DNA of 20,876 nucleotides from a bacterium (GTDB lineage Bacteria > Chloroflexota > Dormibacteria > UBA8260 > Bog-877), in contig JAKABA010000052.1 of assembly GCA_021802115.1 (NCBI GenBank), positions 1-20,876 on the forward strand, given 5' to 3'. Below the pieces are notes generated by a model. That model saw only the letters and a list, made by a program, of their open reading frames with translations, did no database searches and was not told the DNA's origin. A program made the translations under genes and the position numbers. Of this stretch, positions 1,116 to 20,874 are shown piece by piece (the stretch's first letter is position 1; every line of letters starts with the position of its first letter).

Positions 1116-1131
1116 TCCCCCCTTTGGGGGA
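1116..1131. promoter_or_regulatory. G/C-run inverted repeat, candidate operator upstream of sHdr operon
   Basis: Arms TCCCCC (1116-1121) and GGGGGA (1126-1131) form a perfect 6-base inverted repeat around CTTT. The GGGGGA half-site recurs in direct orientation at 1149-1154, 23 bases further on. If transcription starts near 1190 (see the promoter entry), these lie about 60 and 40 bases upstream, where activators often bind. The palindrome could instead be a weak terminator hairpin after the response regulator, but no T-run follows it. Confidence 0.4.
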
Positions 1132-1155
1132 TGCTAATCACCTCAATCGGGGGAG

Positions 1156-1215
1156 TGTCAGGACGACTTGGCTCTCACATACTGAGGCGCGGTCATTGAC
1201 ATAGGAGGCAAGGAG
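1156..1215 (+). promoter_or_regulatory. Putative promoter and strong RBS of the sHdr operon
   Basis: A -10-like CATACT lies at 1178-1183. The same octamer CATACTGA precedes the Lon-domain gene at 17382. A weak -35-like TGTCAG lies at 1156-1161 with a 16-base spacer. Transcription would start near 1190 and leave a leader of about 28 bases. AGGAGG at 1203-1208 and AAGGAG at 1210-1215 give a strong ribosome binding site for the ATG at 1219. The poor -35 match fits an activator-dependent promoter. This is a visual assignment. Confidence 0.4.
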
Positions 1216-1218
1216 CGT

Positions 1219-2433
1219 ATGAGCGACGAGCCGTTGATGAGCATCGCGGGGTCACCTCCCCCATCGTCTCTGGCCCGGAAGTTTGAGCGGGACCCGGCAA
1301 AAGCGCCGACCGAGGATCTGCGCGAGGCGGTCTTCGACTTGGAGCGACAGGGCGAGTGGGTGGTGCAGCGAGTGCCCGAGCCCTACGTCGAGGTGGAGAC
1401 CAAGTACGGGCGCAAGAAGAAGATTCCGATGCAGCACACCTGGCACCACAAGAGCTGCGGCCAGTGTGGGCACATACCCGGCTACTCCACCTCCATATTC
1501 TGGCTGCACCGGGCTCTGGAACTGGACTACAACGACCCCCGTGACCAGACCTCCTGCACCGCCTGGAACTACTACGCCTCCGCCACCTCCAATGCGGCCG
1601 CTCAAGCGGCCGTGGCGCAGCGCAACTTTGCCGCTGCCTATGAGACCGGCTACTACCCGATGATCCACTGTGGCACCAGCTACGGCCACTACAAGGAGGT
1701 GCGGGAGCAGCTGGTGCACAGCCCGGAGCTACGCGCCCAGGTGCGCGACATCATGACCCGGCTGGGCAAGCCGCTGGTGATCCCCGAGGAGATAGTGCAC
1801 TACAGCGAATGGGTGCACGCGATGCGGGGAGAGTTCGCCAAGCGGCGGGTGTTGGACTTCTCGAACATCACGGTGACGGTTCACCCGGCCTGCCACTACT
1901 ACAAGCTGGTCGCTGAGGACGCCATCTACGACGCGGACATCTACAGTGGTCAGCGCACTGCGATCGTGTCGGCGGTGGTCCAGGCCATGGGCGCCAAGGT
2001 GGCCGACTACTCCACCTGGTTCGATTGCTGCGGCTTCGGCTTCCGCCACATCCTGGTGCAACGGGACTTCACGCGCTCCTTTGCCACCCTGCGCAAGATC
2101 CAGGTGATGAAGGACGAAGCGAATCCGGACGTGGTGCTCACCCACGACACCGGCTGCGTCACGACCCTCGACAAGAGTCAGTTCGTGGGCCAGGCGAAGG
2201 GGTACAACGTCGGCATCCCGGTGATGTCGGAGGCCCAGTTCGTGGCCCTGGCGATGGGGGCGCATCCCTACCGCGTCTGCCAGCTGCACTGGCACTCGGT
2301 CGACTACCGACCCCTGCTGGAGAAGATGGGCATCGACTGGGAGGCGCGCTGGGCCGAGTTTGAGCAGGACCTGAAGCGGATTCAGAGCGGGGAGATGCAG
2401 TACCTCACCTGGGAGCAGACCGGTGTCAAGTGA
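1219..2433 (+). CDS. shdrB1: Sulfur-oxidising heterodisulfide reductase-like subunit sHdrB1 (CCG-domain protein)
   Basis: This 404-residue soluble protein has two cysteine-rich (CCG) regions of the HdrB type, the fold that holds non-cubane 4Fe-4S clusters at the disulfide-handling site. The second is near canonical: C225, C270-C271-G and C313, plus C354. The first is altered: C80, C83, a lone C113 where a CC pair is expected, and C151. About 75 residues precede the first cysteine, so the protein is longer than a typical HdrB of about 300 residues. The ATG follows a strong RBS. It heads the operon with sHdrA 11 bases overlapping, and LbpA and TusA downstream point to the sulfur-oxidising sHdr complex rather than a methanogen Hdr. 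Assignment as B1 rests on context and sequence pattern. Confidence 0.85.
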   Translation: MSDEPLMSIAGSPPPSSLARKFERDPAKAPTEDLREAVFDLERQGEWVVQRVPEPYVEVETKYGRKKKIPMQHTWHHKSCGQCGHIPGYSTSIFWLHRALELDYNDPRDQTSCTAWNYYASATSNAAAQAAVAQRNFAAAYETGYYPMIHCGTSYGHYKEVREQLVHSPELRAQVRDIMTRLGKPLVIPEEIVHYSEWVHAMRGEFAKRRVLDFSNITVTVHPACHYYKLVAEDAIYDADIYSGQRTAIVSAVVQAMGAKVADYSTWFDCCGFGFRHILVQRDFTRSFATLRKIQVMKDEANPDVVLTHDTGCVTTLDKSQFVGQAKGYNVGIPVMSEAQFVALAMGAHPYRVCQLHWHSVDYRPLLEKMGIDWEARWAEFEQDLKRIQSGEMQYLTWEQTGVK

Positions 2434-3493
2434 AGCCATCCTGGTGATCGGCGGTGGCCCGGCTGGCCTGGAGGCGGCGCGGGGGGCGGCGGACCTCGGC
2501 AGCGAGGTGATCCTGGTCGAGCGCAGGGCACGGTTGGGCGGGACCCCGGACTCGGCGGGCTACTCCGCCTTCGCACTGGATCACCGCCCCGCCCAGGAGG
2601 TGCTGGAGATCGCCCGCCAGGCGGTGCTGACCCACCCCTTGATCAAGGTTCACCTGGAGACCGAGGTCACCGCCTTCGACGGGGAGCTGGGGGAGTTCAG
2701 GGCCAGCCTGCGAGCGGCGGACGGCGCGGCTGCCGAGGTCAGCTGTGGCGCGGCCATCATCGCCACCGGCTTCGACCACTTCGACCCGGGCCGGGAGACC
2801 CAGTCCTACGGCTACTACGAGTACGACGACGTGATCACTCTGGTCGACGCCGAGCGGATGCTGGCGGCCAAGAACTTCGTGCGCCCATCCACCGGCCAGC
2901 CCCCCAAGCAGGTCTGTTTCATCCAGTGCGTCGGCTCCCGCGACCGCCGCATCGGCAACGAGTACTGCTCCAAGGTCTGCTGCGGCGTCGCCACCAAGGA
3001 GGCCTCCGAAATCCGGGAGCTGGTCCCCGACTGTCGCGTCTTCATCTTCTATATCGACATGCGGATGTACGGGTTCTGGGAGGACCGCATCTACTGGAAG
3101 GCGCAGGAGCAAGACCACGTGAACTTCGTGCGCGGGATCGTGACCGAGATCACCCGCCGGGGCGACCGCCTGGTGATCAAGGGAGAGGACACCACCATGA
3201 ACCGTCCCATGGAGATCCCCATGGATGTGGTGGTCCTCTCGGTGGGGATGGTCCCGTCGGAGGGGACCAAGATGGTGGGCAAGCTGCTGGGCGTGGCCCA
3301 GGACAAGCACGGCTTCATCGCCCCCCCGGAGAACGCCCTCGACTCCGTCGGCACCTCGGTGGCGGGCATCTACGTGGCCGGCGCGGCGGCGGGTCCCAAG
3401 GATCTGGACGACTGCGTCTCCATGGCCGGATCGGCCGCCATGAAGGCGGTGGCCGCGCTCCGCCGCCGTTCAGCGGTCCCTGTCGCGGGATGA
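2423..3493 (+). CDS. shdrA: sHdrA, FAD/Fe-S flavoprotein of the sHdr complex
   Basis: This 356-residue flavoprotein is a short HdrA-like protein. A Rossmann FAD motif GGGPAGLEAA lies at residues 10-19, a second conserved stretch AAIIATGFDHFDP near 110-122, and the HdrA cluster motif C165...C169...C182-x3-C186-C187 (QCVGSRD, then YCSKVCCGVA). The C-terminal GIYVAGAAAGPKDLDD region (316-330) closes the FAD site. The length matches sHdrA and is far below full methanogen HdrA. The family is thought to form the flavin core of sHdr, passing electrons from sulfur substrate oxidation to the other subunits. The GTG start overlaps shdrB1 by 11 bases and is preceded by GGGAG at 2411-2415. The stop overlaps the next ATG. 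Confidence 0.9.
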   Translation: MSSEAILVIGGGPAGLEAARGAADLGSEVILVERRARLGGTPDSAGYSAFALDHRPAQEVLEIARQAVLTHPLIKVHLETEVTAFDGELGEFRASLRAADGAAAEVSCGAAIIATGFDHFDPGRETQSYGYYEYDDVITLVDAERMLAAKNFVRPSTGQPPKQVCFIQCVGSRDRRIGNEYCSKVCCGVATKEASEIRELVPDCRVFIFYIDMRMYGFWEDRIYWKAQEQDHVNFVRGIVTEITRRGDRLVIKGEDTTMNRPMEIPMDVVVLSVGMVPSEGTKMVGKLLGVAQDKHGFIAPPENALDSVGTSVAGIYVAGAAAGPKDLDDCVSMAGSAAMKAVAALRRRSAVPVAG

Positions 3494-4233
3494 TCACCGG
3501 CCACGGCCAGGTGGTCGACACCGAGGCCGCTCAGGAGTTCATGCGCGAGGCCGAGCGGCTGATCCAGGCGCCGGAGCTCGATGGGATCGCCTTGGAGCTC
3601 GAGGTGAAGTCCCGGCGCTTCCGGGAGATGCTGGACCGCGACTCGCTGCCCGCTCTGTCCTCGGAGCAGCTGCGAGGCTGTCTGCGCACCATCTTTGCGG
3701 CTCGGCGCCACTCCGACGAGCTGCTGGCCCAGGTCGGAGATGGACGGTGGCGGCAGGCGCTCTGGAACCTTCTCCACGAGCCAGGGCCCGTCTCGGCGCG
3801 CATCGACTCGTTCGATCAGGAGCTGGCGGAGGTGGACCAGGGCATCCGCCGGGACGTGGCGGGGGAGGCACTGCACTTCTTCGACCCCGAGCGTCACTGG
3901 CTCTGGACGCGCTGGATCTGGGACCCGGAGATCGGCACCGGCGCCCTCCCGCTGGTGACCATGGAGGAGCACGACCTATCCGCCAGCTCGGCCGGGGAGA
4001 CCTACCTGCGGGTCGGCGAGGGCATTGCATTTGTCAACCAGACGGGACGCTCCGTCGGATTCACGCGCTTCGGAACCGAGGCCTTCGGGGTCGACGTCTA
4101 CCTCGCCTGCGTCTATGGGGTTTACCTGTACACGATCACCCGGATCCGGATGAGCCAGGAGTTCAACAAGGTCATCCCCCCCTTGCCCCAGCTGACCCGC
4201 CGGCTGCTGGGCATCCACCGGATGGAGGTCTGA
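3490..4233 (+). CDS. shdrH: sHdrH-like conserved protein of the sHdr cluster
   Basis: This is a 247-residue protein with no cysteine-cluster motif or known catalytic signature. The N-terminal half is charged and probably helical. The C-terminal half has aromatic-rich segments (FDPERHWLWTRWIWDPE) and a moderately hydrophobic stretch, VDVYLACVYGVYLYTI. The start is the ATG inside the ATGA that overlaps the shdrA stop; an in-frame extension further upstream would lie inside shdrA. Known sHdr clusters carry a conserved gene of similar size and unknown function (sHdrH, formerly Hyp) in exactly this place after sHdrA. The name rests mainly on position and size. The next gene starts immediately after the stop. 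Confidence 0.7.
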   Translation: MITGHGQVVDTEAAQEFMREAERLIQAPELDGIALELEVKSRRFREMLDRDSLPALSSEQLRGCLRTIFAARRHSDELLAQVGDGRWRQALWNLLHEPGPVSARIDSFDQELAEVDQGIRRDVAGEALHFFDPERHWLWTRWIWDPEIGTGALPLVTMEEHDLSASSAGETYLRVGEGIAFVNQTGRSVGFTRFGTEAFGVDVYLACVYGVYLYTITRIRMSQEFNKVIPPLPQLTRRLLGIHRMEV

Positions 4234-5499
4234 ATGTCTGAGATAGAGGCGGAGCGAGTCCACGAGGAAGAGCACCTGGTCTTTGAGGGCATGGACATCT
4301 CGGGCCAGTGGAACCGGATGTTCGAGCAGCGGGTGGTCTGGGAGCACGACATCAGCGCCCTGGACCGGGTGACCGAGATCCCCGGGGCGGAGTCTTTGGC
4401 CTACTGCTACCAGTGCGGCAAGTGCACGCCCGCCTGCCCGGTGGATCACGTGGGCGACTACAGCCCCCGCAAGATATACCGTCGCACCCAGCTGGGTGCG
4501 GATCTGCTCACCAGCCCGGACCTCTGGCTCTGCACCACCTGCGGCAACTGCCTGCGGGTGTGCCCCAAGGAGGTCAATCTGCTCAAGATCATGCCTGCGG
4601 TCAGGGAGCAGGCCGTCGCCGCCGGCAACGTCCCGGCCGAGCTGCAGAAGGCGTTCGAGAACACCTTCCAGTACGGCAATCCCCTGGGTGAGCCAGCGCG
4701 CAAGCGCGCGGACTGGGTGGCCGAGGCCGGGGCCCCGGTGACCGTTCTCAGTCGCGAGCCCCGTCCCGTGGACGTGCTCTTCTTCGTCGAGTGCTACTGG
4801 GCCTACCACCCCAGGGGCCGCGATGCGGCCAGAGCCTTTGCCAGGACCATGGCCGCGCTGGGGGTCGATTGGGGCATTCTGGGGTCGGAGGAGAAGTGTT
4901 CCTGCGACAGCCAGCGGGCGGCGGGGGAGCGTGGCCTCTTCGAGATGGTGGCGGAGCAGAACATCGCCACCCTGGGTCGTTACGAGTTCAAACGGCTGGT
5001 CACCCCCGACCCCCACGCCTACAACTCCTTCCGCAATGAGTATCCCAAGCTGGGCGGGGTCTACGACGTCACCCACTACACCCAGTTCCTGGCGCCCTTG
5101 ATGGGCCAGCTGCCCTGGCAGCGGGAGCTGCCCTATCGCGTCACCTTCCACGATCCCTGCTACCTGGGCCGCCACAACGGTGAGTACGACGCTCCCCGCG
5201 AGATGATCCGGCAGATCCCCGGGCTGGAGTTCGTGGAGATGTTCCGCTGCAAGGAGAACGGGTACTGCTGTGGCGGCGGGGGCGGGGGCATGTGGCTGGA
5301 CAGCTTTTCCGGCAATCACACCAAGGAGCGGCTCAGCGAGCGGCGGGTGCGGGAAGCGGTGGAGACCGGCGCGGAGATGCTGGTCGTCTGCTGCCCCTAT
5401 GAGGTCTCCCGCTTCGAGGACGCGGTGAAGTCAACCGGCAACGAGGGCAAATTGCTCGTTCGCGATGTCATCGAGCTCGTGGACGAGGCCCTGCACTAG
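4234..5499 (+). CDS. shdrB3: HdrC-HdrB fusion (sHdrB3 / HdrD-like Fe-S protein)
   Basis: This 421-residue soluble protein joins an HdrC-like ferredoxin domain to HdrB-like CCG domains. Two 4Fe-4S motifs are clear: C58-x2-C61-x2-C64-x3-C68P and C100-x2-C103-x2-C106-x3-C110P. The CCG part starts near residue 180. Its first site keeps C187, C222 and C224 (KCSCDSQ, a CSC in place of CC). The second is complete: C309, C339, C345-C346-GGGGGG, then C386-C387. No transmembrane segment is visible. It replaces separate sHdrC2 and sHdrB2 genes, and its layout parallels the soluble half of the EMO-like protein two genes downstream. It sits directly before etfBA, so it may link sHdr to EtfAB. ATG follows the sHdrH stop with no gap. 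Confidence 0.88.
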   Translation: MSEIEAERVHEEEHLVFEGMDISGQWNRMFEQRVVWEHDISALDRVTEIPGAESLAYCYQCGKCTPACPVDHVGDYSPRKIYRRTQLGADLLTSPDLWLCTTCGNCLRVCPKEVNLLKIMPAVREQAVAAGNVPAELQKAFENTFQYGNPLGEPARKRADWVAEAGAPVTVLSREPRPVDVLFFVECYWAYHPRGRDAARAFARTMAALGVDWGILGSEEKCSCDSQRAAGERGLFEMVAEQNIATLGRYEFKRLVTPDPHAYNSFRNEYPKLGGVYDVTHYTQFLAPLMGQLPWQRELPYRVTFHDPCYLGRHNGEYDAPREMIRQIPGLEFVEMFRCKENGYCCGGGGGGMWLDSFSGNHTKERLSERRVREAVETGAEMLVVCCPYEVSRFEDAVKSTGNEGKLLVRDVIELVDEALH

Positions 5500-5509
5500 G
5501 AGGCGGTGC

Positions 5510-6277
5510 GTGCATATCGCAGTGATCTTGAAGCAGGTCCCCGATCTGGTGGAGGAGGTGGAGGTTGACGCCACGGGTACCGACATAGACCGGGACAGCG
5601 TCAAGTGGAAGTTGAACGAATTCGACGACCACGCCCTGGAGGAGGCGATCCTCCTCAAGGAGGCTGGAGGCGGTGAGGTCACCGCCCTGGCTCTGGACGC
5701 CGATGGGGTCGACCAGATGCTCTACGCCGCGCTGGCGCGGGGTGCCGACCGGGCCGTGAAGATCCCCACCCCCGACGGGCGCACCGATGCGCCACGGGCG
5801 GCGGCGGCTCTGACCGAGGTTCTCCCGGGGATGGCTCCCGATCTGGTGCTGACCGGGGTTCAGGCCGCCGACGACATCCATGGCCAGCTAGCCCCGATCC
5901 TGGCAACCAGCCTGGGGTGGCCCCACGTCAGCGTTGTCAGTGGCATCGAGCCGGGGGCGGCCACGGTCCGGGTGCAGCAGGAGTACTCCGGCGGGCGCAT
6001 GGCAACCCTGGAGGTCCAATTGCCGGCAGTCCTGGGGGTGCAGGCGGCCGCTCGGCCGCCCCGGTATGTCCCCATCAGCCGCCTCCGCCAGGTCATGGCC
6101 TCCGCCCAGATCACCGCGGCGGCGCCGGCGGCTGGGGCTCCGGTCGGGGCCCCGGCGGTCACCCGCCTGGCCGCGCCCGCCAGGGGCGCGGGGGCAAGGA
6201 TGCTGGAGGGCAAACCCGAGGAGGTGGCCCAGCAGATAGTCGACCTGCTCCGCGAGCGCGGATTGGTGGGAGCATGA
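5510..6277 (+). CDS. etfB: Electron transfer flavoprotein beta subunit
   Basis: This 255-residue EtfB begins MHIAVILKQVPD, the usual N-terminus of the family. The nucleotide-binding stretch TGVQAADDIHGQLAP lies at residues 115-129, and the C-terminal LPAVLGVQAAARPPRYVPI (171-189) is characteristic of EtfB. The GTG start at 5510 is chosen because AGGAGG at 5498-5503 lies just upstream and it gives the family N-terminus. Its stop overlaps the etfA ATG. With EtfA it forms a soluble heterodimer carrying FAD and AMP or a second FAD. Between the sHdr genes and a membrane oxidoreductase it probably accepts electrons from the sHdr complex. Whether it bifurcates cannot be decided by eye. An Ala/Gly/Pro-rich linker spans about 200-230. 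Confidence 0.95.
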   Translation: MHIAVILKQVPDLVEEVEVDATGTDIDRDSVKWKLNEFDDHALEEAILLKEAGGGEVTALALDADGVDQMLYAALARGADRAVKIPTPDGRTDAPRAAAALTEVLPGMAPDLVLTGVQAADDIHGQLAPILATSLGWPHVSVVSGIEPGAATVRVQQEYSGGRMATLEVQLPAVLGVQAAARPPRYVPISRLRQVMASAQITAAAPAAGAPVGAPAVTRLAAPARGAGARMLEGKPEEVAQQIVDLLRERGLVGA

Positions 6278-7248
6278 GCATGGCCGGTGTGATGGTCTAC
6301 GTGGAAGCCGACCAGGGCCGGGTCGCTCCCATCACCTTTGAGCTGCTGGGTGCGGCGCGGCAGCTGGCGGAGGCGTTTGGCGGCCCGGTCGAGGCCCTGG
6401 TGGCGGCGGCGGACTGCGAGCCGCTGGCGGACCAGCTGGGCGCCGCGGACACCATCGTCACCGTCACCAGCCCGGCTCTGGCGGACTACCTCCCGGAGGC
6501 CCACCAGGCGGTGCTGGTGGAGGCGATCCGGGCTCGCGAGCCGGCGGTGGTGCTGGTGGGGTACACCTCGGCCGGGATCGACCTCGCGGCCGGCAGCGCG
6601 GTCGCCACCGGGCGGCCGCTGGTGGCGTACTGCGTCGGGCTCAGTGCCGAAGGTGGCGAGCTGGTGGCCGAGAGCCAGCTCTACGGAGGCAAGTTGGTGG
6701 CGACCACCAGGACCGCCCCGCCGGCGGTGTTCTCGGTGGTCGCCGGCACCTTCGCGGAGGCAGCCGGCCACTCCGGCGGGGAGGGAATCAGGAGCGTCAT
6801 GTCCCCTCCGGAGGCTCTCGACCACCTCAGGACCCGGCTCATCGCCACCGGGAGCGGCGGCGAGGGCGGGATCGACATCACCAAGGCGGAGCGGATCGTC
6901 AGCGTCGGGCGTGGCATCGGTGGGCCCGACAACATCGAGGTGGCGGAGGAGTTCGCGGCGGCCCTTGGAGCCGAGCTGGGAGCCTCTCGTCCTGTGGTGG
7001 ACAGTGGCTGGCTGCCCAAGGAGCGCCAGGTCGGCAAGTCGGGAATGACGGTCAAGCCGAAGCTCTACGTGGCGGTCGGCATCTCCGGGGCGCCCGAGCA
7101 TTTGGAGGGCATGCAGGCTGCCGGCCTGATCATCGCCATCAACACCGATCCCAACGCTCCCATCTTCCAGGCTGCCAGCTACGGGACCACCTGCGATCTC
7201 TTCGACATCCTCCCCGCCCTCAGCAAGCGTCTCAAGGCGGCTGGCTGA
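6274..7248 (+). CDS. etfA: Electron transfer flavoprotein alpha subunit
   Basis: This 324-residue EtfA starts at the ATG that overlaps the etfB stop. The C-terminal FAD-binding domain carries the family motifs in order: VGRGIGG (211-217), SRPVVDSGW (238-246), QVGKSGMTV (252-260) and YVAVGISGAPEHLEGM (265-280), followed by INTDPNAPIFQAASYG. The N-terminal domain (about 1-185) pairs with EtfB. EtfA holds the FAD that shuttles electrons to the quinone reductase. The gene ends three bases before the membrane-bound Hdr-type oxidoreductase, the expected electron acceptor of EtfAB. Confidence 0.96.
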   Translation: MSMAGVMVYVEADQGRVAPITFELLGAARQLAEAFGGPVEALVAAADCEPLADQLGAADTIVTVTSPALADYLPEAHQAVLVEAIRAREPAVVLVGYTSAGIDLAAGSAVATGRPLVAYCVGLSAEGGELVAESQLYGGKLVATTRTAPPAVFSVVAGTFAEAAGHSGGEGIRSVMSPPEALDHLRTRLIATGSGGEGGIDITKAERIVSVGRGIGGPDNIEVAEEFAAALGAELGASRPVVDSGWLPKERQVGKSGMTVKPKLYVAVGISGAPEHLEGMQAAGLIIAINTDPNAPIFQAASYGTTCDLFDILPALSKRLKAAG

Positions 7249-7251
7249 CCG

Positions 7252-9246
7252 ATGGCACCGACCACGATCGCCCTGCTCGCCCTGATGGTGGCAACCTTCG
7301 CGTGGTCCGGCTATCGCTTCGCCAGGCTGCTGCGACCCCTGACCAAAGCTGGGGCGGAAGACCGTTTCGACCATCCGCTCCGCCGCATCTTGGGGGTGGT
7401 CACCAACGTCGGAGGACACACCCGCCTGCTGCAGATCCGCTACTCCGGGACCCTGCACCTGATGATCTTCAGCGGCTTCGTGGTCCTGCTCACCGCCGTG
7501 GTCGAGGAGTTCGGCAAGGGCCTCGTTCCCGGATTCAGCCTGGCGCCGATAGGCGGCAACACCTGGATCGCCCTGCTGCAGGACATCTTTGACGTTTTGG
7601 TGCTGGTGGGCCTGGCGATGGCGGCCTTCAACCGCTACGTGCGGCGGCCGGAACGCTTCAAAGGGTCCAACGAGCGGGACGCCACCATAATCCTGATCCT
7701 CATCTTCTGCGTCGTCGCCAGCATGCTGCTGCACAGCACCTTCCGGGTGGCCGAGGGGCATGACCCCTCGGCCGCCTGGCGGCCGGTCAGCTCCGCCTTG
7801 GCGGCGGCGGTGGGGCTGGCGGGGATCCACGGGCGGGCGGCCCAGCCCTACGCCCACGTCTTCTACTGGACCCACATCCTGGCGATCCTCGGCTTTCTGG
7901 CCTACATTCCGACCTCCAAGCATCTGCACATCTTCGTGGGCATCCCCAACATCTACTTCCGGGACCTGTCCCCCAAGGGCACCCTGCCGGCGGCGGATCT
8001 CAGCCAGCCCTCGATCGGCCTCAAGGAGATCCACCAGATGGGTTGGAAGCAGATGCTGGATCTCTACGCCTGCACGGAGTGCGGGCGCTGCCAGGCGGTG
8101 TGCCCTGCCTTCGCCGCGGGCCAGCCGCTCAGCCCCAAGCTCCTGATCATGGATTTGCGCGACCACCTCCTGGAGCAGGAGGGCATCGGCTCCCACCGCA
8201 AGGGGGTGGGTGGGGTCCAGCTGCTGGGCGACGCGGTCCGTGACGACACGCTCTGGGCATGCACCACCTGCCGCGCCTGCATGCAGGTCTGTCCGCTCCA
8301 TATCGAGCATGTGCCCAAGATCGTCGACATGCGCCGGCAGCTGGTGGAGCAGGGACGGATGGAGCCGCGGCTACAGGACACCTTGGCCAGCCTCGCCCAG
8401 TACGGCAACTCCTTCAATCAGTCTGAGCGGCTGCGCTCCAAGTGGACCAAGGATCTCGGCTTCACGATCAAGGACGCGCGCAAGGAGCCGGTCGACGTGC
8501 TCTGGTTCGTGGGCGACTTTGCTTCCTACGACCCCCGGGTCCAGCGCCTCACTCAGACCGTGGCCAGAGTCCTCCACCGCGCCGGAGTGGACTTCGGGAT
8601 TCTCTATGACAGCGAGCGCAACAGCGGCAATGATGTGCGCCGGGTCGGCGAGGAGGGCCTCTTCGAGATGCTGGCCCAGCACAACATCGAGACCCTCGGC
8701 AAGTGCCAGTTCCAGCGCATCATGACCACCGACCCCCACAGCCTCAACGCGCTCGGCCAGGAGTACCCCAGACTCGGGGGAACCTATCCCGTGCTCCACT
8801 ACACCCAGCTCTTGTTGGAGCTTCTGGAGCAGGGGGCACTCAAGCCCACTCGGGGTCAGGAGATGGTGGCCACCTACCACGACCCCTGCTATCTGGGCAG
8901 GTACAACAACGGCTTCGACGCACCCCGCCGGGTCATGGAGTTGCTCGGGGTCAAGGTGCACGAGATGCCCCGCTGTCGCGAGAACAGCTTCTGCTGCGGG
9001 GCCGGCGGCGGTAGGATCTGGATGGACGATCGTGGGGTCAAGGAGCGCCCCAGTGAGAACCGGATTCGCGAGGCGGTGGCCCTTGGCGATGCCCGCTACT
9101 TCGTGGTGGCGTGCCCCAAGGACGTGGTCATGTACACGGCGGCGGTGCAAACAACGCAAATGGACGGCCGCATCGAGGTGATGGACGTCATCGAACTGGT
9201 GGAGGCTGCCCTGGAGCCGGAGGAGGCCACCGTTGCTGTCGCTTGA
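7252..9246 (+). CDS. emo: Membrane NarI-HdrC-HdrB fusion, EMO-like ETF:menaquinone oxidoreductase
   Basis: This is a 664-residue fusion. Residues 1-230 form a NarI-like membrane domain with about six hydrophobic segments (near 5-25, 65-85, 105-127, 143-162, 178-194 and 203-220). Histidines H69, H161, H202 and H208 could ligate b-type haem. Two 4Fe-4S motifs follow: C274-x2-C277-x2-C280-x3-C284P and C337-x2-C340-x2-C343-x3-C347P. A double CCG domain occupies about 415-650. Its second site is complete (C545, C575, C581-C582-GAGGG, C621). Its first site has lost its cysteines (DSERNSGND near 453-461). The layout matches the family proposed to move electrons from EtfAB to menaquinone, and the gene directly follows etfA. 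Substrate use is inferred from family and context. Confidence 0.88.
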   Translation: MAPTTIALLALMVATFAWSGYRFARLLRPLTKAGAEDRFDHPLRRILGVVTNVGGHTRLLQIRYSGTLHLMIFSGFVVLLTAVVEEFGKGLVPGFSLAPIGGNTWIALLQDIFDVLVLVGLAMAAFNRYVRRPERFKGSNERDATIILILIFCVVASMLLHSTFRVAEGHDPSAAWRPVSSALAAAVGLAGIHGRAAQPYAHVFYWTHILAILGFLAYIPTSKHLHIFVGIPNIYFRDLSPKGTLPAADLSQPSIGLKEIHQMGWKQMLDLYACTECGRCQAVCPAFAAGQPLSPKLLIMDLRDHLLEQEGIGSHRKGVGGVQLLGDAVRDDTLWACTTCRACMQVCPLHIEHVPKIVDMRRQLVEQGRMEPRLQDTLASLAQYGNSFNQSERLRSKWTKDLGFTIKDARKEPVDVLWFVGDFASYDPRVQRLTQTVARVLHRAGVDFGILYDSERNSGNDVRRVGEEGLFEMLAQHNIETLGKCQFQRIMTTDPHSLNALGQEYPRLGGTYPVLHYTQLLLELLEQGALKPTRGQEMVATYHDPCYLGRYNNGFDAPRRVMELLGVKVHEMPRCRENSFCCGAGGGRIWMDDRGVKERPSENRIREAVALGDARYFVVACPKDVVMYTAAVQTTQMDGRIEVMDVIELVEAALEPEEATVAVA

Positions 9247-9646
9247 ACAGCCGGAGCCAGGAAGCGCCCTCGCGGATGCCATCGCCGACCGCCAGGCGGG
9301 CTTGCTGCGCGCTCACGAGCGGGGGCTGGCGTTGGCCCCGGGGGCGCCGCTGGAAGCGGGGTCGGGGGGCGCTGGGCGCAGTCTTTCCGAGGCGCTGCTG
9401 AGGCGTGCCCTGCAGTGCCTGGCCGAGTCCTCTGAGTATTCCCTGGCACGGCGGCTCGTGGCCGAGGGCAGCCTGGCGGCCACCCCCAGCCCGCTCGTGG
9501 AGGTCTCCCGGCAAGCGCTCGCGCAGGCCGGCTTGGCGACCTGGAATCCGGCGACCGGCGAGCTGCGCGGGACCGCCCTGGTCGCTGCCCTGATGCGATT
9601 CTTCGAGGCTGGCATCGAGGGGGTGCGCAACCAGGCGAGCCCATGA
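9233..9646 (+). CDS. Unknown 137-residue protein in the sHdr operon
   Basis: I do not recognise this family. The TTG start at 9233 lies inside the end of the EMO-like gene, giving a 14-base overlap, with a purine-rich GGAGGAGG just upstream as ribosome binding site. The stop overlaps the next ATG as ATGA, so it is translationally embedded in the operon. The protein is rich in Ala, Leu, Glu and Arg and looks largely alpha-helical. It has one cysteine (LQCLAES), no membrane segment and no metal motif. The central stretch LSEALLRRALQCLAESSEYSL and the closing LVAALMRFFEAGIEGV could be amphipathic helices. Position suggests a role in LbpA or electron-transfer function, but this is only association. 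Confidence 0.7.
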   Translation: MLSLEQPEPGSALADAIADRQAGLLRAHERGLALAPGAPLEAGSGGAGRSLSEALLRRALQCLAESSEYSLARRLVAEGSLAATPSPLVEVSRQALAQAGLATWNPATGELRGTALVAALMRFFEAGIEGVRNQASP

Positions 9647-9933
9647 CCTGTCCATTTTGCGAGCGGGCCGGCGAGCGGCGCGAGCTGCACGCGCACATGC
9701 TGTCTGACCATAGGGACCGGCTGGTCACCAGAAGCGAGGAAGGACGAATCTTCATGGAGGTGAACTGCCCGACCTGTTCCGAGGGGATCAGCAAGGAGGT
9801 GAACCCGCGCGGGCGCGACCCCGAGTTCTTGGACAAGTTCGCGGACGAGATTAGGATGGTGGGCTTCGATCTCTTGCTCTATCACTGGGAGACGCATGTC
9901 GCAGCCGCCGTAGAGGGACCGACGGAGGGATAG
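9643..9933 (+). CDS. Small C2H2-like zinc-finger protein in the sHdr operon
   Basis: This 96-residue protein opens with CPFCERAGERRELHAHMLSD followed by H, a C-x2-C plus closely spaced histidines that resembles a C2H2/U1-type zinc finger. A second pair, CPTC, lies near residues 43-46. The rest is charged, ending in an amphipathic-looking FADEIRMVGFDLLLYHWETH. No enzyme motif is visible. The ATG overlaps the preceding stop (ATGA), and the LbpA gene starts two bases after its stop. A zinc-dependent scaffold, chaperone or delivery role for lipoylated LbpA is possible but unsupported beyond context. Confidence 0.75.
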   Translation: MTCPFCERAGERRELHAHMLSDHRDRLVTRSEEGRIFMEVNCPTCSEGISKEVNPRGRDPEFLDKFADEIRMVGFDLLLYHWETHVAAAVEGPTEG

Positions 9934-9935
9934 CC

Positions 9936-10373
9936 TTGGCCACAGTCAACCACTGCAACATTCCGGACGATCTCCATTACATGATCCAAAAGCATGTCTG
10001 GGTCCAGCGCGAAAGCGACGGCTGTGCCCTGATCGGCATCACCGATGTCGCCCAAAAGCTGGCGGGCAAGATCATCGTGGTCACCACCAAGAAAGTCGGC
10101 CGGGGTCTGACCAAGGGTCAGAGCACAGGCACCATCGAGAGCTCAAAATGGGTGGGCCCGATCCCGAGCCCGCTCACCGGTGAGATCGTGGCTGTCAACC
10201 AGGCGCCCCAGGACGATCCCACCGTGCTGAACCGGGACCCGTACGGCAACTGGATAGTGCGGCTGCAACCCTCCAATTGGGAGGAGGAGAGTGGCGACCT
10301 GGTGACCGGGACCGATGGGGTCGAAGCCTACCGCCGCCTGCTGGAGGCGGAGGGGATCGACTGCGGCAGCTGA
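9936..10373 (+). CDS. lbpA1: Lipoate-binding protein LbpA, first copy (GcvH-like)
   Basis: This 145-residue protein of the GcvH/lipoyl-carrier fold has the lipoylation motif GTIESSKWVGPIPSP, with K71 as predicted acceptor. The ExxKW form is typical of LbpA from sHdr clusters. The N-terminal DDLHYMIQKHVWVQRES corresponds to the opening strand of GcvH, and GEIVAVNQAP plus NRDPYGNWIVRLQPSNW complete the fold. No glycine cleavage genes are nearby. In the sHdr pathway the lipoyl arm is thought to carry sulfur intermediates for oxidation. The TTG start lies two bases after the previous stop and six bases after GGAGGG, and gives the expected N-terminus. A second copy follows directly. Confidence 0.92.
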   Translation: MATVNHCNIPDDLHYMIQKHVWVQRESDGCALIGITDVAQKLAGKIIVVTTKKVGRGLTKGQSTGTIESSKWVGPIPSPLTGEIVAVNQAPQDDPTVLNRDPYGNWIVRLQPSNWEEESGDLVTGTDGVEAYRRLLEAEGIDCGS

Positions 10374-10375
10374 AT

Positions 10376-10840
10376 GTGGACATTCCCCCGCGTACCCATC
10401 AGGGCTGTGCCATCCCCCATGATCTTGAGTACGACCTCGAGAGCGATGTGTGGGTGCGCTTCGAGGCAGACGGCAGCGCCACCATGGGCATGACCGATCC
10501 CGCCCAGACCCGGGCGGGCAAGCTGGTGAGCATCCTCTTCAAACGTCCGGGCAGGCTGCTCGAAGCCGGCCAGAGCGTGGCGACCATCGAGAGCGCGAAG
10601 TGGGTGGGGCCCTTCCCAACCCCCCTGTCGGGGGAGCTCCTGGAGGTCAATCAGGCAGGCTTCCAGAGAGACATCCTGATTGCCAATCGCGACCCCTATG
10701 GCGAGGGCTGGCTGGCCCGGCTGCGCCCCAGCGACCTCGTTCGCGACCGGCCCCGGCTGACGGCAGGTCCGCAGGCCTTCGACTATTACAAGGAGCGCAT
10801 CGACCGTGAAGGAATCCGATGCTACCGCTGCGCCGACTGA
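10376..10840 (+). CDS. lbpA2: Lipoate-binding protein LbpA, second copy (GcvH-like)
   Basis: This 154-residue paralogue of the preceding protein has the motif ATIESAKWVGPFPTP and predicted lipoyl-lysine K75. HDLEYDLESDVWVRFE, GELLEVNQA and NRDPYGEGWLARLRPSD align with the first copy without gaps worth noting, though many positions differ, so this is an old duplication rather than a recent repeat. A C-terminal extension ends in CYRCAD, adding a C-x2-C absent from copy one. The GTG at 10376, two bases after the lbpA1 stop, gives the right N-terminus, but the nearest purine-rich RBS (about 10352-10363) is farther than ideal, so the start is less certain. Two carriers may serve different subunits or steps. 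Confidence 0.88.
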   Translation: MDIPPRTHQGCAIPHDLEYDLESDVWVRFEADGSATMGMTDPAQTRAGKLVSILFKRPGRLLEAGQSVATIESAKWVGPFPTPLSGELLEVNQAGFQRDILIANRDPYGEGWLARLRPSDLVRDRPRLTAGPQAFDYYKERIDREGIRCYRCAD

Positions 10841-11027
10841 GCAGCTGTGCCCGCTCTGCCAGATGATGCCGATGGAGGCCGGACGGCCGATGTGCCCGAC
10901 CTGCTGGCGGCTGGCCCCCACCTGGGTGCGGCGCAAGTTCAAGGACAACCAGCAGGCGGATTGGTCACGCCTCCTTGAGGAGGATTCCATCCGCACCCCC
11001 AAGCAGGAGGAGAACGATGGCGATTGA
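10806..11027 (+). CDS. Small zinc-ribbon protein between LbpA2 and TusA
   Basis: This 73-residue protein has two C-x2-C pairs (CPLC near residues 15-18, CPTC near 30-33) that make a compact treble-clef or zinc-ribbon-like site, followed by a basic WRLAPTWVRRKFKDNQQADW helix and a polar tail. The likely GTG start at 10806 overlaps the end of lbpA2 by 35 bases. tusA starts before its stop, so translation is probably coupled on both sides. I do not recognise the family. It is the second zinc-binding mini-protein flanking the LbpA pair, and the two may work together. Confidence 0.7.
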   Translation: MKESDATAAPTEQLCPLCQMMPMEAGRPMCPTCWRLAPTWVRRKFKDNQQADWSRLLEEDSIRTPKQEENDGD

Positions 11028-11256
11028 AGGTGCCGACAAGACGCTCGACTGTCTCCACATGATGTGCCCGATGCCGATCGTGAAGGTGTCCAAGGCGATC
11101 AAGGAGGTGGAGGTGGGGCAGACCTTGCTGCTGATCGCCGACGACCCGGGCGCGACTCCGGACATTCAGACCTGGTCGCGGCGGATGGGCCACGAGTTGG
11201 TCGCCACCGAGCAGGACGGCAAGGTGCTGCGATTTCTGATCCGGAGGACCAGCTGA
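11017..11256 (+). CDS. tusA: TusA-family sulfur carrier protein
   Basis: This 79-residue protein has the TusA fold signature LDCLHMMCPMPIVKVSKAI. C17 in the CPMP motif is the expected persulfide-bearing residue, and C12 is the partly conserved upstream cysteine. The C-terminal DIQTWSRRMGHELV matches the family helix and strand pattern. ATG at 11017 follows AGGAGGAG at 11005-11012, and the stop overlaps the next start as TGATG. In sHdr clusters TusA relays sulfane sulfur to the oxidation machinery. No DsrE or rhodanese gene, the usual partners, is found in this window. Confidence 0.95.
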   Translation: MAIEGADKTLDCLHMMCPMPIVKVSKAIKEVEVGQTLLLIADDPGATPDIQTWSRRMGHELVATEQDGKVLRFLIRRTS

Positions 11257-11939
11257 TGCGACCCACCTCGATTCCCGACGCCACCTTCGAGGAAAAGCAG
11301 CGCCTCTTCAGCGAGGTGGAGGCCGACCCCCGCTTCCCGGAGTACCTCAAGGGTTGTTACGAGTGCGGGATCTGCGTGGCCGCTTGCCCGTCTGCCCGTT
11401 TCTACAACTTCAGTCCTCGTCGCATCACGCAGGCGGTGGCCCGCCAGGACGTGGAGCTGGTGTGGGAGCAGATGAACGGTGAGGTCTGGGATTGCTCCCA
11501 GTGTTTCTCCTGCTTGCGCTGCCCTCGCGGGAACAATCCCGGGGGAGTGATCACGATCCTGCGCGAGGTGGCGGTGAGGCATGGCTTGCGCACCGCCAAG
11601 GAGGCGCTGGAGGGCTACGGCCGGATCATCTACAAGATCATGGGGACCGGCACCCAGGTCTCCCCCGACATGATTCAGCCGGAGGCCTTCCCCGACTGGG
11701 GCCCGGACACCAAGGAGACCTCCGCGAACCTACAGCTGTGGCGCAAGGCGCTGCCGCCAGAGACCCTGCACACCACCAGCACCTCCTGGGACGTGGCCCC
11801 CAAGACGCTCACCGAACTGTATTTGATCTGGCACCTCACCGGGGTGCTGGACATGATCAAGAGCATCGATCCCAATCTGCACATCATCCTCGGCGACGTG
11901 ATGGAGGAGCTGCTGGAGGAGCAGGGTTACCAAATGTGA
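11256..11939 (+). CDS. shdrC1: sHdrC1, HdrC-like Fe-S subunit
   Basis: This 227-residue HdrC-like protein has the ferredoxin motif C34-x2-C37-x2-C40-x3-C44P (CYECGICVAACP) and a second set C80-x2-C83-x2-C86-x2-C89P (CSQCFSCLRCP), whose last spacing is two residues instead of the usual three. The C-terminal half, with LWRKALPPETLHTTSTSW and a helical end, resembles sHdrC1 proteins. It would form a two-cluster wire between sHdrB1 and the flavin subunit. In most described clusters shdrC1 precedes shdrB1; here it is last in the operon. ATG overlaps the tusA stop by one base. The last 56 bases overlap the convergent minus-strand J-domain gene. Confidence 0.88.
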   Translation: MRPTSIPDATFEEKQRLFSEVEADPRFPEYLKGCYECGICVAACPSARFYNFSPRRITQAVARQDVELVWEQMNGEVWDCSQCFSCLRCPRGNNPGGVITILREVAVRHGLRTAKEALEGYGRIIYKIMGTGTQVSPDMIQPEAFPDWGPDTKETSANLQLWRKALPPETLHTTSTSWDVAPKTLTELYLIWHLTGVLDMIKSIDPNLHIILGDVMEELLEEQGYQM

Positions 11940-13239
11940 CCCTCCAGAAATCCCCTTCCGCGTAGAGGAGATAGAGATCATCTCCCACCCATTCGGCTTG
12001 GGCTGGTCGCAGCAGCCGCGACTGTGCCACTGCGCCATCGCCGGTTACGAGCATCAGCCCCTCCCGCCCGTGGGCGACGATCCCGGCCGGGGTGGCGCGC
12101 AGCTCGTATTCCCAGTCCACCGGGATCGGTACCAGGCCTCCGTGGGCGAGCCGCAGCTCCCCCGGCCCCCCGGCTGCGACCAGATCGCCGACTGCCGTGA
12201 CCGCCAGTCTGACCGGTGCGTGGCGGCTCAGCCGCCCTTGCTCCCGCTCCCGGCCCCCGCCGTCGAGGAGATGCCAGGTGCCCGAACAGGTGGCGACCCA
12301 GGCCTGGTCTGGTCCACAGGGCCAGACTCCGCTGATCTCCAAGCGGCCGCTGTCAACCAGGCGGTGCGCTGGCGACGGTTGCCGCTGGAGCAACACCCGA
12401 TAGGCATTGGCCACCGCCCGGAAGCGCTGCTCCGCCTCCGGCTCTTCGGGATGGTGATCCGGGTGGGTCTCCTTCGCCCGGCGGCGGAAGGCGCGCCGGA
12501 CCGTGGTGGGGCTGGAGTCGAGCGGGATCCGGAGCAACTCCGCCGCCTGGCGGCGGCCCGGCTCAGAGGTGTCGTCCCCGGCCGCCGGAGCCGCCCAGCT
12601 CCACCGCACGGCGCCCACCCCGTCCAGTTCGGTGATCCCGCCGCGCTCGGAGACCCACACCCTGCCGCCACCGGGGGAAGCCCACACACGCTGCTCGGGA
12701 GTGGCCGGCCAGCCGGGCACCGCATGGCTCCAGAGGTGGCCGCCACTGGGGTCGAAGGCGCTGAGCGCACCGCCGGAGGTCGCCACCAGCACCAGCTCCC
12801 CTGCCACCACGATCTGGGTCAGAGCGCCGTCCAGGGTCAGGACCCGAGTCACCACGCCCGCCGGAGAGAGCACCACCAGCTGCCGGCCGAACGGCCGATA
12901 CCCGGCCCGATCGGCGATCCGGGCGGGCCAGGAGCGCAGCCACAGCCAGCCCCCGGCGGCAGCCACGATGCGGTAGGCGGGCAGCGCCAGCTCCGCGACC
13001 TGCCGATACTCCCGGCTTGGCGAGGGCAGTGCCGCCAGCTCCGAGCTCACGGCATCGCGGGCCACCAGCACAGTGTGGTCCGAAGCCACCGTCCAGGCTC
13101 GAACGATAGGCCGCAGGGTGAGCGACTCCACCACCTTCCAGCCCACCGTGGGCGGCCAGAATGGTGACGGCAGCTCGAGCTCGGGGGCGACCCGAACTGA
13201 CCACTTCCGCGGCGGCAACGCCTGGTGGGAGGGCTTCAT
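11884..13239 (-). CDS. J-domain protein embedded in beta-propeller-like sequence
   Basis: This protein of up to 451 residues has a DnaJ-type J domain in its middle (about residues 232-286). It has AAELLRIPLDSSPTTVRRAF, the HPD motif (259-261) and EQRFRAVANAYRVLL. On both sides are repeating strand-rich segments such as LVLVATSGGALSAFDPSGGHLWSHA and DLVAAGGPGELRLAHGG, which resemble PQQ/WD-type beta-propeller blades. No signal peptide or membrane segment is visible. J domains stimulate Hsp70 ATPase. The gene converges with shdrC1 (56-base overlap). The ATG at 13239 lies in a CATG shared with the ligase start on the other strand and has no clear RBS; a TTG at 13218 is an alternative. Function unknown. 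Confidence 0.78.
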   Translation of the reverse strand: MKPSHQALPPRKWSVRVAPELELPSPFWPPTVGWKVVESLTLRPIVRAWTVASDHTVLVARDAVSSELAALPSPSREYRQVAELALPAYRIVAAAGGWLWLRSWPARIADRAGYRPFGRQLVVLSPAGVVTRVLTLDGALTQIVVAGELVLVATSGGALSAFDPSGGHLWSHAVPGWPATPEQRVWASPGGGRVWVSERGGITELDGVGAVRWSWAAPAAGDDTSEPGRRQAAELLRIPLDSSPTTVRRAFRRRAKETHPDHHPEEPEAEQRFRAVANAYRVLLQRQPSPAHRLVDSGRLEISGVWPCGPDQAWVATCSGTWHLLDGGGREREQGRLSRHAPVRLAVTAVGDLVAAGGPGELRLAHGGLVPIPVDWEYELRATPAGIVAHGREGLMLVTGDGAVAQSRLLRPAQAEWVGDDLYLLYAEGDFWRVTFGNPAPPAAPPSRRRG

Positions 13240-14326
13240 GGACGAAGTGAGACTGCTGGATTTGGGGCTTTGCTCATACACCCAAAGCCAGACTCTTTAT
13301 CACGCGCTCGCCGACAGCCTGCGGCCTGACCAACCGAACACCATCATCCTCTGTCGGCCCCGCCGGCCGTACGTCTGTATCGGACGCCACCAGGAGCTGG
13401 GCCGCGAAGTTGACACGGCCGCATGTGCCCGCCTGGGGCTGCCGATTCTGCGCCGGGAAGTGGGTGGGGGAGCGGTTTACCTGGATCGCGATCAGCTCTT
13501 CTTCCAGATGGTCTGGCAGCCCCGAGATGTGCCGCCGCGCATCGCCCAGGCATTCGAGTACTTCGCGCGCGGGCCGGTCGAGTGCTACCGTGCCCTGGGG
13601 ATCCCGGGCGCTCATTTCGCGCCTGTCAACGATCTCCAGGTCGGTGGCCGCAAGATTGGAGGCCTGGGGGCGGCCACGATCGGTCAGGCGTTCGTCTTCG
13701 TGGGTTCGATCATCAGCGCCTTCGACGCCGGCGCCGCCGCCAGCGTCCTGCTCATCCCTGACGAGAAGATCCGGGACAAGGTGGCCAACACCATGGCGGC
13801 GTACGTGTCTAGCCTGGAGCGGGAGTTGGGCCGACGGCCGGCGCCACGGGTGGTAGGCCGGGCGCTGGTGACCGCGTTCGAGCGTACCCTGGGGGTCGCC
13901 TTGATCCCCGGCACCCTGCGAGGAGACGAGCGCCAGGCCTACTCGCGGCGGGTCCGGCGCATGCGCAGCCGCGCGTGGCTGGATGATGTGCGCCTTCCGG
14001 CGGACCGTCTCCGGGCCTTGCGGATCACGGGAAACGTGAGGGTCGGCCACGCTGTCCGCAAGGCCCCGGGTGGCTTGGTGCGGGCGACCTTGATCATCGC
14101 TGACGGCCAGATCACCCAGGCCCTGCTCAGCGGCGACTTCTACGCGGTCGGCGATGTCGTCCCGGAGTTGGAGCAGGCGCTTCTGGGGCCAGTTGCCAAA
14201 TCGGGTCCGCGAGATCGCCTCTACCGCCGGTGGCGTGCCGATGCCATCCCCGGGCTGGATCCTGGAGATGTCGCGGAGGTGGTCGAGTCCGCCCTGGAGC
14301 CCACGGCTTCGCAGGAACTGGCCTGA
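13238..14326 (+). CDS. slpl: Lipoate-protein ligase-like protein of the sHdr type (sLpl)
   Basis: This 362-residue protein of the LplA/BPL superfamily has [18 protein letters not shown] (42-59), the ligase signature [20 protein letters not shown] (70-89, close to the family RRxxGGGxVYHD) and [12 protein letters not shown] with catalytic-type lysine K139. About residues 255-345 form a C-terminal domain like the LplA/LplB accessory domain, so this is a single-chain ligase. ATG at 13238 follows GGGAGGG at 13227-13233. In sHdr organisms a dedicated ligase attaches octanoate or lipoate to LbpA and partner LipS1/LipS2 insert sulfur; no LipS gene is visible here. Location next to two LbpA genes makes them the likely substrates. 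Octanoyltransferase-like activity cannot be excluded. Confidence 0.85.
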
Positions 14327-18040: not shown

Positions 18041-18062
18041 TCTAAGAGCGCGCCTAGGTCAG
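18037..18062. terminator. Inverted repeat between convergent genes
   Basis: CTGATCTA (18037-18044) and TAGGTCAG (18055-18062) pair over eight positions with one mismatch (G-T in RNA), around a 10-base loop. The stem contains both stop codons of the convergent genes. No T-run follows on either strand, so a bidirectional terminator role is tentative. Confidence 0.3.
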
Positions 18063-20350: not shown

Positions 20351-20352
20351 GG

Positions 20353-20874
20353 TCAGATCGAAATGTCCCTGTAGATGCTGCCGAACTCCCGACGGGCGGT
20401 GGCGACCAGCCGCGAGGCCGCCTCCGGGGAGCACTCCATGGCGACGCCGATCTCCCGATAGCTGAGCTTGGCCAGGTCGCGCAGCAAGAGTGCGGACCGC
20501 CTGCCGAACTCGCACGCGAGCAGCGCCCGCTTGGCGGTGTTGATGCGGGAGGCGTCGGCCCCGGACGACCCCAGGCTGATCAGCGGCGGCCGCTTGCCAA
20601 AGAGCCGGCCGACCCCCTTTCGCTGGGGGGGGTAGTGCTGGTGCTGCCGCGCCGCTCTGGTCACGGCCCGGTACAGGATCGCCCGCCCATCCCGCTGCAG
20701 GCTGGCGGGCGGGAAGTGCCGAGCATAGTAAAGACCCGCCGTCACGTACTCCACCGCCTCCTCAGGGGTCCCGGTGAGATGGAGTGCGTAGGTGACCAGC
20801 GAATCGAGATGCTGGCGGGCGAGCTCCTCCAGCGTGCTCGCGGCAGTTTGAGGTCGTTCTAAGACGCTGTTCAT
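20353..20874 (-). CDS. ECF-type RNA polymerase sigma factor
   Basis: This 173-residue protein has a sigma region 2-like N-terminus (LARQHLDSLVTYALHLTGTP then EEAVEYVTAGLYYARHF) that is divergent from the usual DAEDLVQETF pattern, and a clear region 4 helix-turn-helix (LLLRDLAKLSYREIGVAMECSPEAASRLVATARREF). The two are joined by a basic, Pro-rich linker. It would direct RNA polymerase to a specific promoter set under control of the adjacent anti-sigma factor. ATG at 20874 lies two bases from the window end, so an upstream start cannot be ruled out. Its promoter is outside the window. Confidence 0.85.
   Translation of the reverse strand: MNSVLERPQTAASTLEELARQHLDSLVTYALHLTGTPEEAVEYVTAGLYYARHFPPASLQRDGRAILYRAVTRAARQHQHYPPQRKGVGRLFGKRPPLISLGSSGADASRINTAKRALLACEFGRRSALLLRDLAKLSYREIGVAMECSPEAASRLVATARREFGSIYRDISI

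Follow-up and report, generated by a model that had tools for sequence, protein, structure and literature searches.

What does the gene run that begins at position 1219 of contig JAKABA010000052.1 do for its host, and how far does it carry the oxidation of sulfur? The contig (assembly GCA_021802115.1) is 20,876 nucleotides long and is called the window here, meaning the whole stretch of DNA that was analyzed. The original prediction, made from the sequence alone, held that it encodes a complete sulfur-oxidation system in which sHdr proteins and LbpA lipoyl proteins are linked to EtfAB and an EMO-like membrane protein. It is probable that the run is a type II sHdr-LbpA operon of Candidatus Dormibacteria, which would oxidize protein-bound sulfane sulfur to sulfite. 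The word "complete" is too strong, because no match to a DsrE, a rhodanese, or a sulfite-oxidizing enzyme was found among the called genes of the window.

Fourteen plus-strand genes between 1219 and 11939 either overlap their neighbors or sit within about 10 bases of them. The run opens with sHdrB1 (1219–2433), an HdrB-like protein with a CCG domain (2.4e-11) whose eight cysteines are present in 80 of 80 homologs. It continues with sHdrA (2423–3493), a short HdrA-like protein with flavoprotein domains, sHdrH (3490–4233), which has a homolog in 73 of the 80 loci, and sHdrB3 (4234–5499), an HdrC-HdrB fusion (Fer4_8 1.3e-11, CCG 1.6e-21). Next come EtfB (5510–6277; ETF 1.6e-28), EtfA (6274–7248; ETF_alpha 1.5e-34), and an EMO-like membrane iron-sulfur protein with Fer4 and CCG domains (7252–9246). 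These are followed by the 137-residue protein p137 (9233–9646), the 96-residue Cys/His protein p96 (9643–9933), and two LbpAs (9936–10373, GCV_H 4.4e-34; 10376–10840, GCV_H 3e-28). The run closes with p73 (10806–11027), a 73-residue protein recognized in the sequence by two CxxC motifs, TusA (11017–11256, its start read by eye; TusA domain 5.1e-24 on 11020–11253), and sHdrC1 (11256–11939; Fer4_8 2.6e-8, with HdrC models below their cut-offs). Ten of the 14 genes matched Pfam above the curated cut-off and p96 had only a sub-threshold match, to zf-Di19; the profile search gave no Pfam match for sHdrH, p137, and p73. The 14 frames and their families were recovered as predicted. The run had been drawn as far as 14326, and the ligase that ends there is indeed present, but a minus-strand gene with a DnaJ domain (11884–13281; DnaJ 4.7e-12) breaks the run before it.

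The gene set is more than a chance assembly because it recurs in many loci. A scan of species genomes gave at least 587 confirmed sHdrB1 relatives, of which 80 loci were kept. Gene content was counted in the 45 loci whose flanks exceed 2.5 kb on the 5' side and 9.5 kb on the 3' side of sHdrB1, using best-assigned frames above 30 bits. All 45 hold B1, A, H, B3, and C1, while EtfB occurs in 44, EtfA and TusA in 43 each, EMO in 37, the ligase in 33, and p96 in 21. Frames nearest to the first LbpA were found in 42 and to the second in 35. At one locus, L074, the C1 and B1 frames start 4 bases apart. Nearly the same cluster as in the window is present in four genomes, G272, G001 (locus L001), G002 (L002), and G003 (L003), with sHdrB1 84–94% and sHdrC1 85–93% identical. 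The usual order places TusA or C1 before B1. In the window, L001–L003, G272, and G321, TusA and C1 close the gene run; sHdrC1 lies at the far end of the cluster, about 10 kb from the sHdrB1 start, and a C1 start at this distance was seen in 3 of the 80 loci.

A type II sHdr-LbpA system has been defined by shdrC1B1AHB3 and etfAB in one syntenic cluster (PMC11582611), and, judged by its predicted proteins, the cluster in the window is such a system. The closest solved structure to sHdrA is 6TJR of H. denitrificans (290.8 bits, E 1.6e-85), and methanogen HdrA chains reach at most 210.8 bits. A methanogen HdrA was considered and rejected, as sHdrA has 356 residues against 643–671 in the solved chains and its main match covers about chain residues 313–577. 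An sHdrA tree was built from 22 rows, namely the window, 6TJR, and 20 of 37 matched open frames, with QmoA, some duplicate frames, and methanogen HdrA left out. The window and 13 other type II rows came together (80/92, drawn open). Next to them, 6TJR formed a group with second sHdrA copies from three Bacillota genomes (84/76, with a long-branch warning for 6TJR). These second copies are taken as type I because Sulfobacillus has two hdr clusters (PMC4378227) and LbpA genes lie on the same G018 contig. All sHdrA rows split from four QmoB rows (100/100). In other words, the sHdrA of the window sits in the type II sulfur-oxidation clade, beside type I and apart from QmoB.

The LbpAs were placed likewise. 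Their tree had 35 rows, made up of the two window LbpAs and the rows of 30 loci saved from 41 matches in 11 genomes, and it divided into 27 LbpA and 8 GcvH-like rows with a split of 100/99 on both sides. Identification of the window LbpAs as glycine cleavage H proteins was rejected, since they fall outside the GcvH-like clade. Both have an N-terminal cysteine, a C-terminal cysteine, and an ESxKWVGP motif with the lipoyl lysine. The GcvH-like rows of G001, G003, and G252 (L183, L180, and L184) have no cysteine; the G002 row (L182), whose open frame is longer, has two. Neither tree moved its protein out of the sulfur-oxidation clades, and both agree with the predicted sHdr-LbpA system with EtfAB and an EMO-like protein. 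Three of the eight GcvH-like rows sit on sHdr contigs (G005:C130, G252:C160, and G017:C85), so some clusters also hold a third, GcvH-like lipoyl protein. The LplA-type lipoate-protein ligase (13238–14326, plus strand) has a clear catalytic domain (LplA-B_cat 4.2e-29), and an LplB model matches residues 275–353 at 1.3e-5, below its cut-off. The ligase shares a contig with sHdr in G001–G003.

Where would the electrons go? The ETF was compared with solved structures with a view to an electron-bifurcating type, for which the FAD site of the beta subunit is the criterion; the nearest solved structure to EtfB is 1O94 (132.7 bits; 72.7 for 5OL2), and the nearest to EtfA are 6FAH and 5OL2. The EMO-like protein aligns in two long stretches to mycobacterial EtfD (9OJN, E 5.7e-99). 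EtfD has two CCG domains that bind a linear [3Fe-4S] and a noncubane [4Fe-4S] cluster, and the ligands of the linear cluster are Cys503, 538, 581, and 584 (PMC13083937). The window protein is like EtfD in its pair of heme histidines, two [4Fe-4S] motifs, and second CCG domain. Unlike EtfD, it has D422, N457, D494, and S497 at the four first-CCG positions, and its last second-CCG cysteine is replaced by D624. It was rejected as an EtfD proper, which has two CCG domains, and is called EMO-like because the first-CCG cysteines are absent.

This pattern extends to the other sHdr loci. Full-length frames (at least 80% of the length and more than 250 bits) were found in 46 of the 80 loci, and the other 34 were dropped. 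All 46 proteins lack the first-CCG cysteines, with D, N/S, D, and S/T/A in their place, and all 46 keep the eight cubane cysteines of the two [4Fe-4S] motifs. The heme positions H69 and H226 (78 and 241 in EtfD) are histidines both in the window protein and in all 46 homologs. At the final second-CCG cysteine, all 39 proteins that have a residue at the site carry an aspartate. Across twelve genomes, 12 of 12 sHdr-locus copies lack the four cysteines, and 10 of 11 paralogs elsewhere keep all four; the exception is L244 (Alicyclobacillus), and the paralog L249 ends before the end of the second CCG. No description of this loss in sHdr-linked EMO proteins was found in the passages of the literature that were consulted. 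The loss provides a sequence mark that divides sulfur-linked EMO proteins from most paralogs, and it yields a clear cofactor prediction. By analogy, the protein would transfer electrons from ETF to menaquinone. The first CCG of sHdrB3 is also decayed, with Cys187 present in 27 of 68 sequences, Cys222 in 32 of 68, and no cysteine at the other two sites. Between sHdrB3 and the soluble half of the EMO-like protein there is a resemblance of 40–45% in relatives, and the two look like paralogs within one operon.

How new is such a system? Clusters of sHdr-lbpA have been published for Actinobacteria and Firmicutes (PMC6067878). Group III hdr-lbpA, or type II sHdr, clusters have C1, B1, A, H, B3, and EtfBA clustered with LbpAs (PMC6067878, PMC11582611), as does the window, but in the window TusA and C1 have moved to the end. 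Sulfobacillus hdr gene cluster II (PMC4378227) also combines hdr with etfAB and with a longer hdrC that has six transmembrane helices and CCG domains, and the key of its figure includes gcsh and lpl; it differs from the window in host and gene order. Two CCG domains were ascribed to this long hdrC (PMC4378227), whereas the first-CCG cysteines are absent in the Sulfobacillus proteins checked, from L027, L028, L039, and L059. Among the Chloroflexi, Thermomicrobium roseum has a 19-gene cluster (trd_0160-0142) with hdrABC, etfAB, tusA, and lbpA (PMC6776052), but with three lbpA and two dsrE genes, where the window has two lbpA and no dsrE. Regulators differ as well, as the window has an adjoining NarL-type pair and H. 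denitrificans has ArsR-type repressors (PMC12423496). The novelty is smaller than was claimed. The published system has a well-formed representative here, and its host group is one for which the literature search gave no such report.

The host was identified through the ArgS encoded in the window, which is 99% identical to a protein of unnamed source and 80% identical to a Candidatus Dormibacteria bacterium protein. Among 120 matches listed, all organism-named ones with at least 62% identity were Dormibacteria, Dormibacteraeota, or Dormiibacterota, and the first other name appeared at 61%. By this marker, the host is a member of Candidatus Dormibacteria, uncultured and barely studied, which bears out the earlier guess of a high-GC member of the Terrabacteria. 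A literature search found no report of sulfur oxidation in Candidatus Dormibacteria. Of 110 genomes in the class of G001, 7 have an sHdrB1 relative (E ≤1e-60), as do 13 of a sample of 201 from its phylum; the center genome is included in both counts. Of the seven, G321 has a partial sHdrB1 and G252 has one split over two contigs. The sHdrA proteins of G005 and G252, from the same class, group with Bacillota, apart from the window (93/92), hinting at separate acquisitions. Record titles of the 80 loci include Chloroflexi, Actinomycetota, Bacillota, Rokubacteria, Neomarinimicrobiota, Bacteroidota, SAR324, and Euryarchaeota.

How might the operon be switched on? The original gene list lacked a pair of plus-strand genes at 1–1091 that Pfam identified here, a sensor histidine kinase whose C-terminal part remains after the cut by the window edge (1–447; HATPase_c 1.7e-11) and a NarL/LuxR-type response regulator (444–1091; Response_reg 1.3e-26, GerE 2.2e-19). 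The regulator is 83% identical to its counterpart in G272, where the kinase homolog has HisKA_3 and HATPase_c domains, and a DsrE2-kinase-regulator set lies upstream in G272, G003, and G001. Between the regulator and sHdrB1 of the window is a putative operator-promoter (1116–1218, plus strand), in which two GGGGGA motifs with 17 bases between them (1126–1154) are followed by CATACTG. The same pattern is shared in G272 and G001 by the stretches preceding sHdrB1 and preceding a sulfate-forming sat-apr-qmo module. The two stretches are 69% alike in G272 (124 columns) and 74% alike in G001 (118 columns). The window has a single site, at 1126–1154, with one mismatch, where 0.01 would be expected with up to two mismatches. 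With at most one mismatch, there are two sites each in G001 and G272 and one each in G002 and G003, and all six precede an sHdr or module operon. The pattern was built from these sites, and their recovery is by construction; the information lies in the lack of other sites in the four genomes. Control searches with the backward pattern gave no sites, and G005 has the operator once, at another place. The regulator is predicted to bind at the tandem GGGGGA operator, and it is probably by this means that the adjacent kinase and regulator activate the operon.

The relatives also suggest where the route may end. In G001 and G272, the order is regulator, phosphoesterase, sat, aprB, aprA, qmoA, qmoB, an HdrCB protein, and then sHdrB1. 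The contig of G002 starts at the phosphoesterase of the module, which leaves the regulator side outside the contig. Among the 80 loci, aprA and sat occur within the available DNA at L001, L002, and L007. Of the seven genomes of the class that bear sHdr, six have an AprA above its cut-off, as do 10 of 45 genomes picked from the 80 loci. In the window, the module is absent at both positions known from close relatives, 5' of sHdrB1 and after the ligase. Positions 1–1233 align to 9568–10798 of G272 contig C141 (76%) and positions 1116–14190 to 21085–34166 (83.6%), so that about 10.4 kb of the G272 contig is skipped; beyond the ligase come thioredoxin and ArgS, with no module. A tree of 12 concatenated proteins from six genomes, with G005 as the outgroup, placed the window as sister to G272 and G002 (100/100), with G001 and then G003 outside this group. 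Loss or relocation of the module in the line of the window is the simpler reading because the window is nested in this way.

An alternative that concerns the missing module only is that sat-apr-qmo lies elsewhere in the genome of the window, or that the join at 1092–1218 is an assembly error, and this is only slightly less probable than its opposite. The module does move among relatives, lying after the ligase in G003, some 30 kb away on the sHdr contig in G252, and on other contigs in G005, and the window was analyzed apart from the rest of its own genome. The likeness of the module-flanking promoters in G272 and G001 (69–74%) makes them a possible place for a misjoin. However, an assembly collapse is unlikely given the differences between the two promoters, and the window aligns unbroken across both sides of the join, which argues against a false join, though not against relocation.

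What chemistry would the operon carry out? In the proposed mechanism, TusA, fed in relatives by the DsrE2 encoded upstream of the kinase, would hand sulfur to the lipoyl arm or the end cysteines of LbpA, which the ligase would have charged. sHdrC1, B1, A, H, and B3 would then withdraw electrons from the LbpA-bound sulfur, and EtfBA would ferry them to the EMO-like membrane protein and on to the quinone pool. Several points weigh against this proposal. One cluster site of the characterized EtfD is missing from the EMO-like protein, and lipA was above its cut-off in three of six relatives. Sulfur uptake, sulfite disposal, quinone type, and lipoyl synthase fall outside the view of an analysis limited to the window. 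With at most one mismatch, no operator was found in G252 or in G321, where the contig ends inside sHdrB1, and in G003 the operator precedes the sHdr operon and not the module. Furthermore, the authors of the T. roseum study proposed thiol-to-disulfide oxidation (PMC6776052).

This last point leads to the possibility that the same machinery serves another substrate: it would support maintenance under starvation by oxidizing small thiols or sulfur from organosulfur compounds, rather than growth on inorganic sulfur. The 19-gene cluster of T. roseum rose 45-fold on average in persistence, and a disulfide between thiol and carrier was predicted there (PMC6776052). However, TusA in the window, together with DsrE2 and Sat/Apr/Qmo in the locus of relatives, fits a route from inorganic sulfane sulfur to sulfate, and the LbpAs carry two cysteines, making another substrate unlikely. 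Hdr enzymes are reversible in principle, and the Sat, Apr, and Qmo proteins found in relatives also serve sulfate reduction. A pathway running in the reductive direction is nevertheless very improbable, as sHdrA groups with that of sulfur oxidizers and an ETF with an EMO-like protein suggests electrons entering the quinone pool (PMC13083937).

With oxidation of sulfane sulfur to sulfite as the preferred reading, the operon adds uncultured Dormibacteria to the likely cytoplasmic sulfur oxidizers, and in relatives a single DNA stretch encodes DsrE2, TusA, LbpA, sHdr, Apr/Qmo, and Sat. Three extras come with it, namely a class of EMO proteins poor in cysteine, an operator accompanied by a regulator, and the lack of the sulfate-forming module at the places known from relatives. 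A joint account of these extras is tentative and, on balance, doubtful. In it, sHdr-linked EMO proteins would be a separate class of ETF:quinone oxidoreductase without the linear [3Fe-4S] site and the last second-CCG cysteine, a shorter wire fitted to the ETF of sulfur oxidation. In part of the Dormibacteria, a DsrE2-kinase-NarL system would control both sHdr and sat-apr-qmo as a single regulon from twin promoters, which would also permit loss or relocation of the sulfate-forming cassette, and the window would be a variant that stops at sulfite. Its odds are lowered because the G003 module has no operator.

Among the small proteins, p96 occurs in 24 of the 80 loci, in many of them between EMO and LbpA, and this unnamed protein thus recurs in clusters of the type II sHdr kind. 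C3, C6, H16, H18, H23, C42, C45, and H81 are invariant in 25 sequences, and a guess is that p96 binds zinc. p137 and p73 were each found in 3 of the 80 loci (L001–L003) and also in G272 and G321, the p137 of G321 being 38% identical. The sHdrH protein likewise had no NCBIfam match. Its AlphaFold2 model is helical (predicted local distance difference test score 92.5), and structure comparison with the model gave no firm relative; its nearest neighbors, below threshold, were two 8-oxoguanine DNA glycosylases. The DnaJ gene between sHdrC1 and the ligase is also present in G272, G001, G002, and G003 (48–65% identity). In G321, no DnaJ gene lies between the two, and a ligase fragment directly follows sHdrC1. 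Downstream of the ligase, the window encodes the thioredoxin, ArgS, a Lon-domain gene, and, on the minus strand at 18059–20874, a sigma-factor gene with a long anti-sigma-like protein that has a zinc-finger domain. Further HdrA-like frames (L203 and L210) are present in G001 on contig C3 at 36200–38418, away from the sulfur locus.

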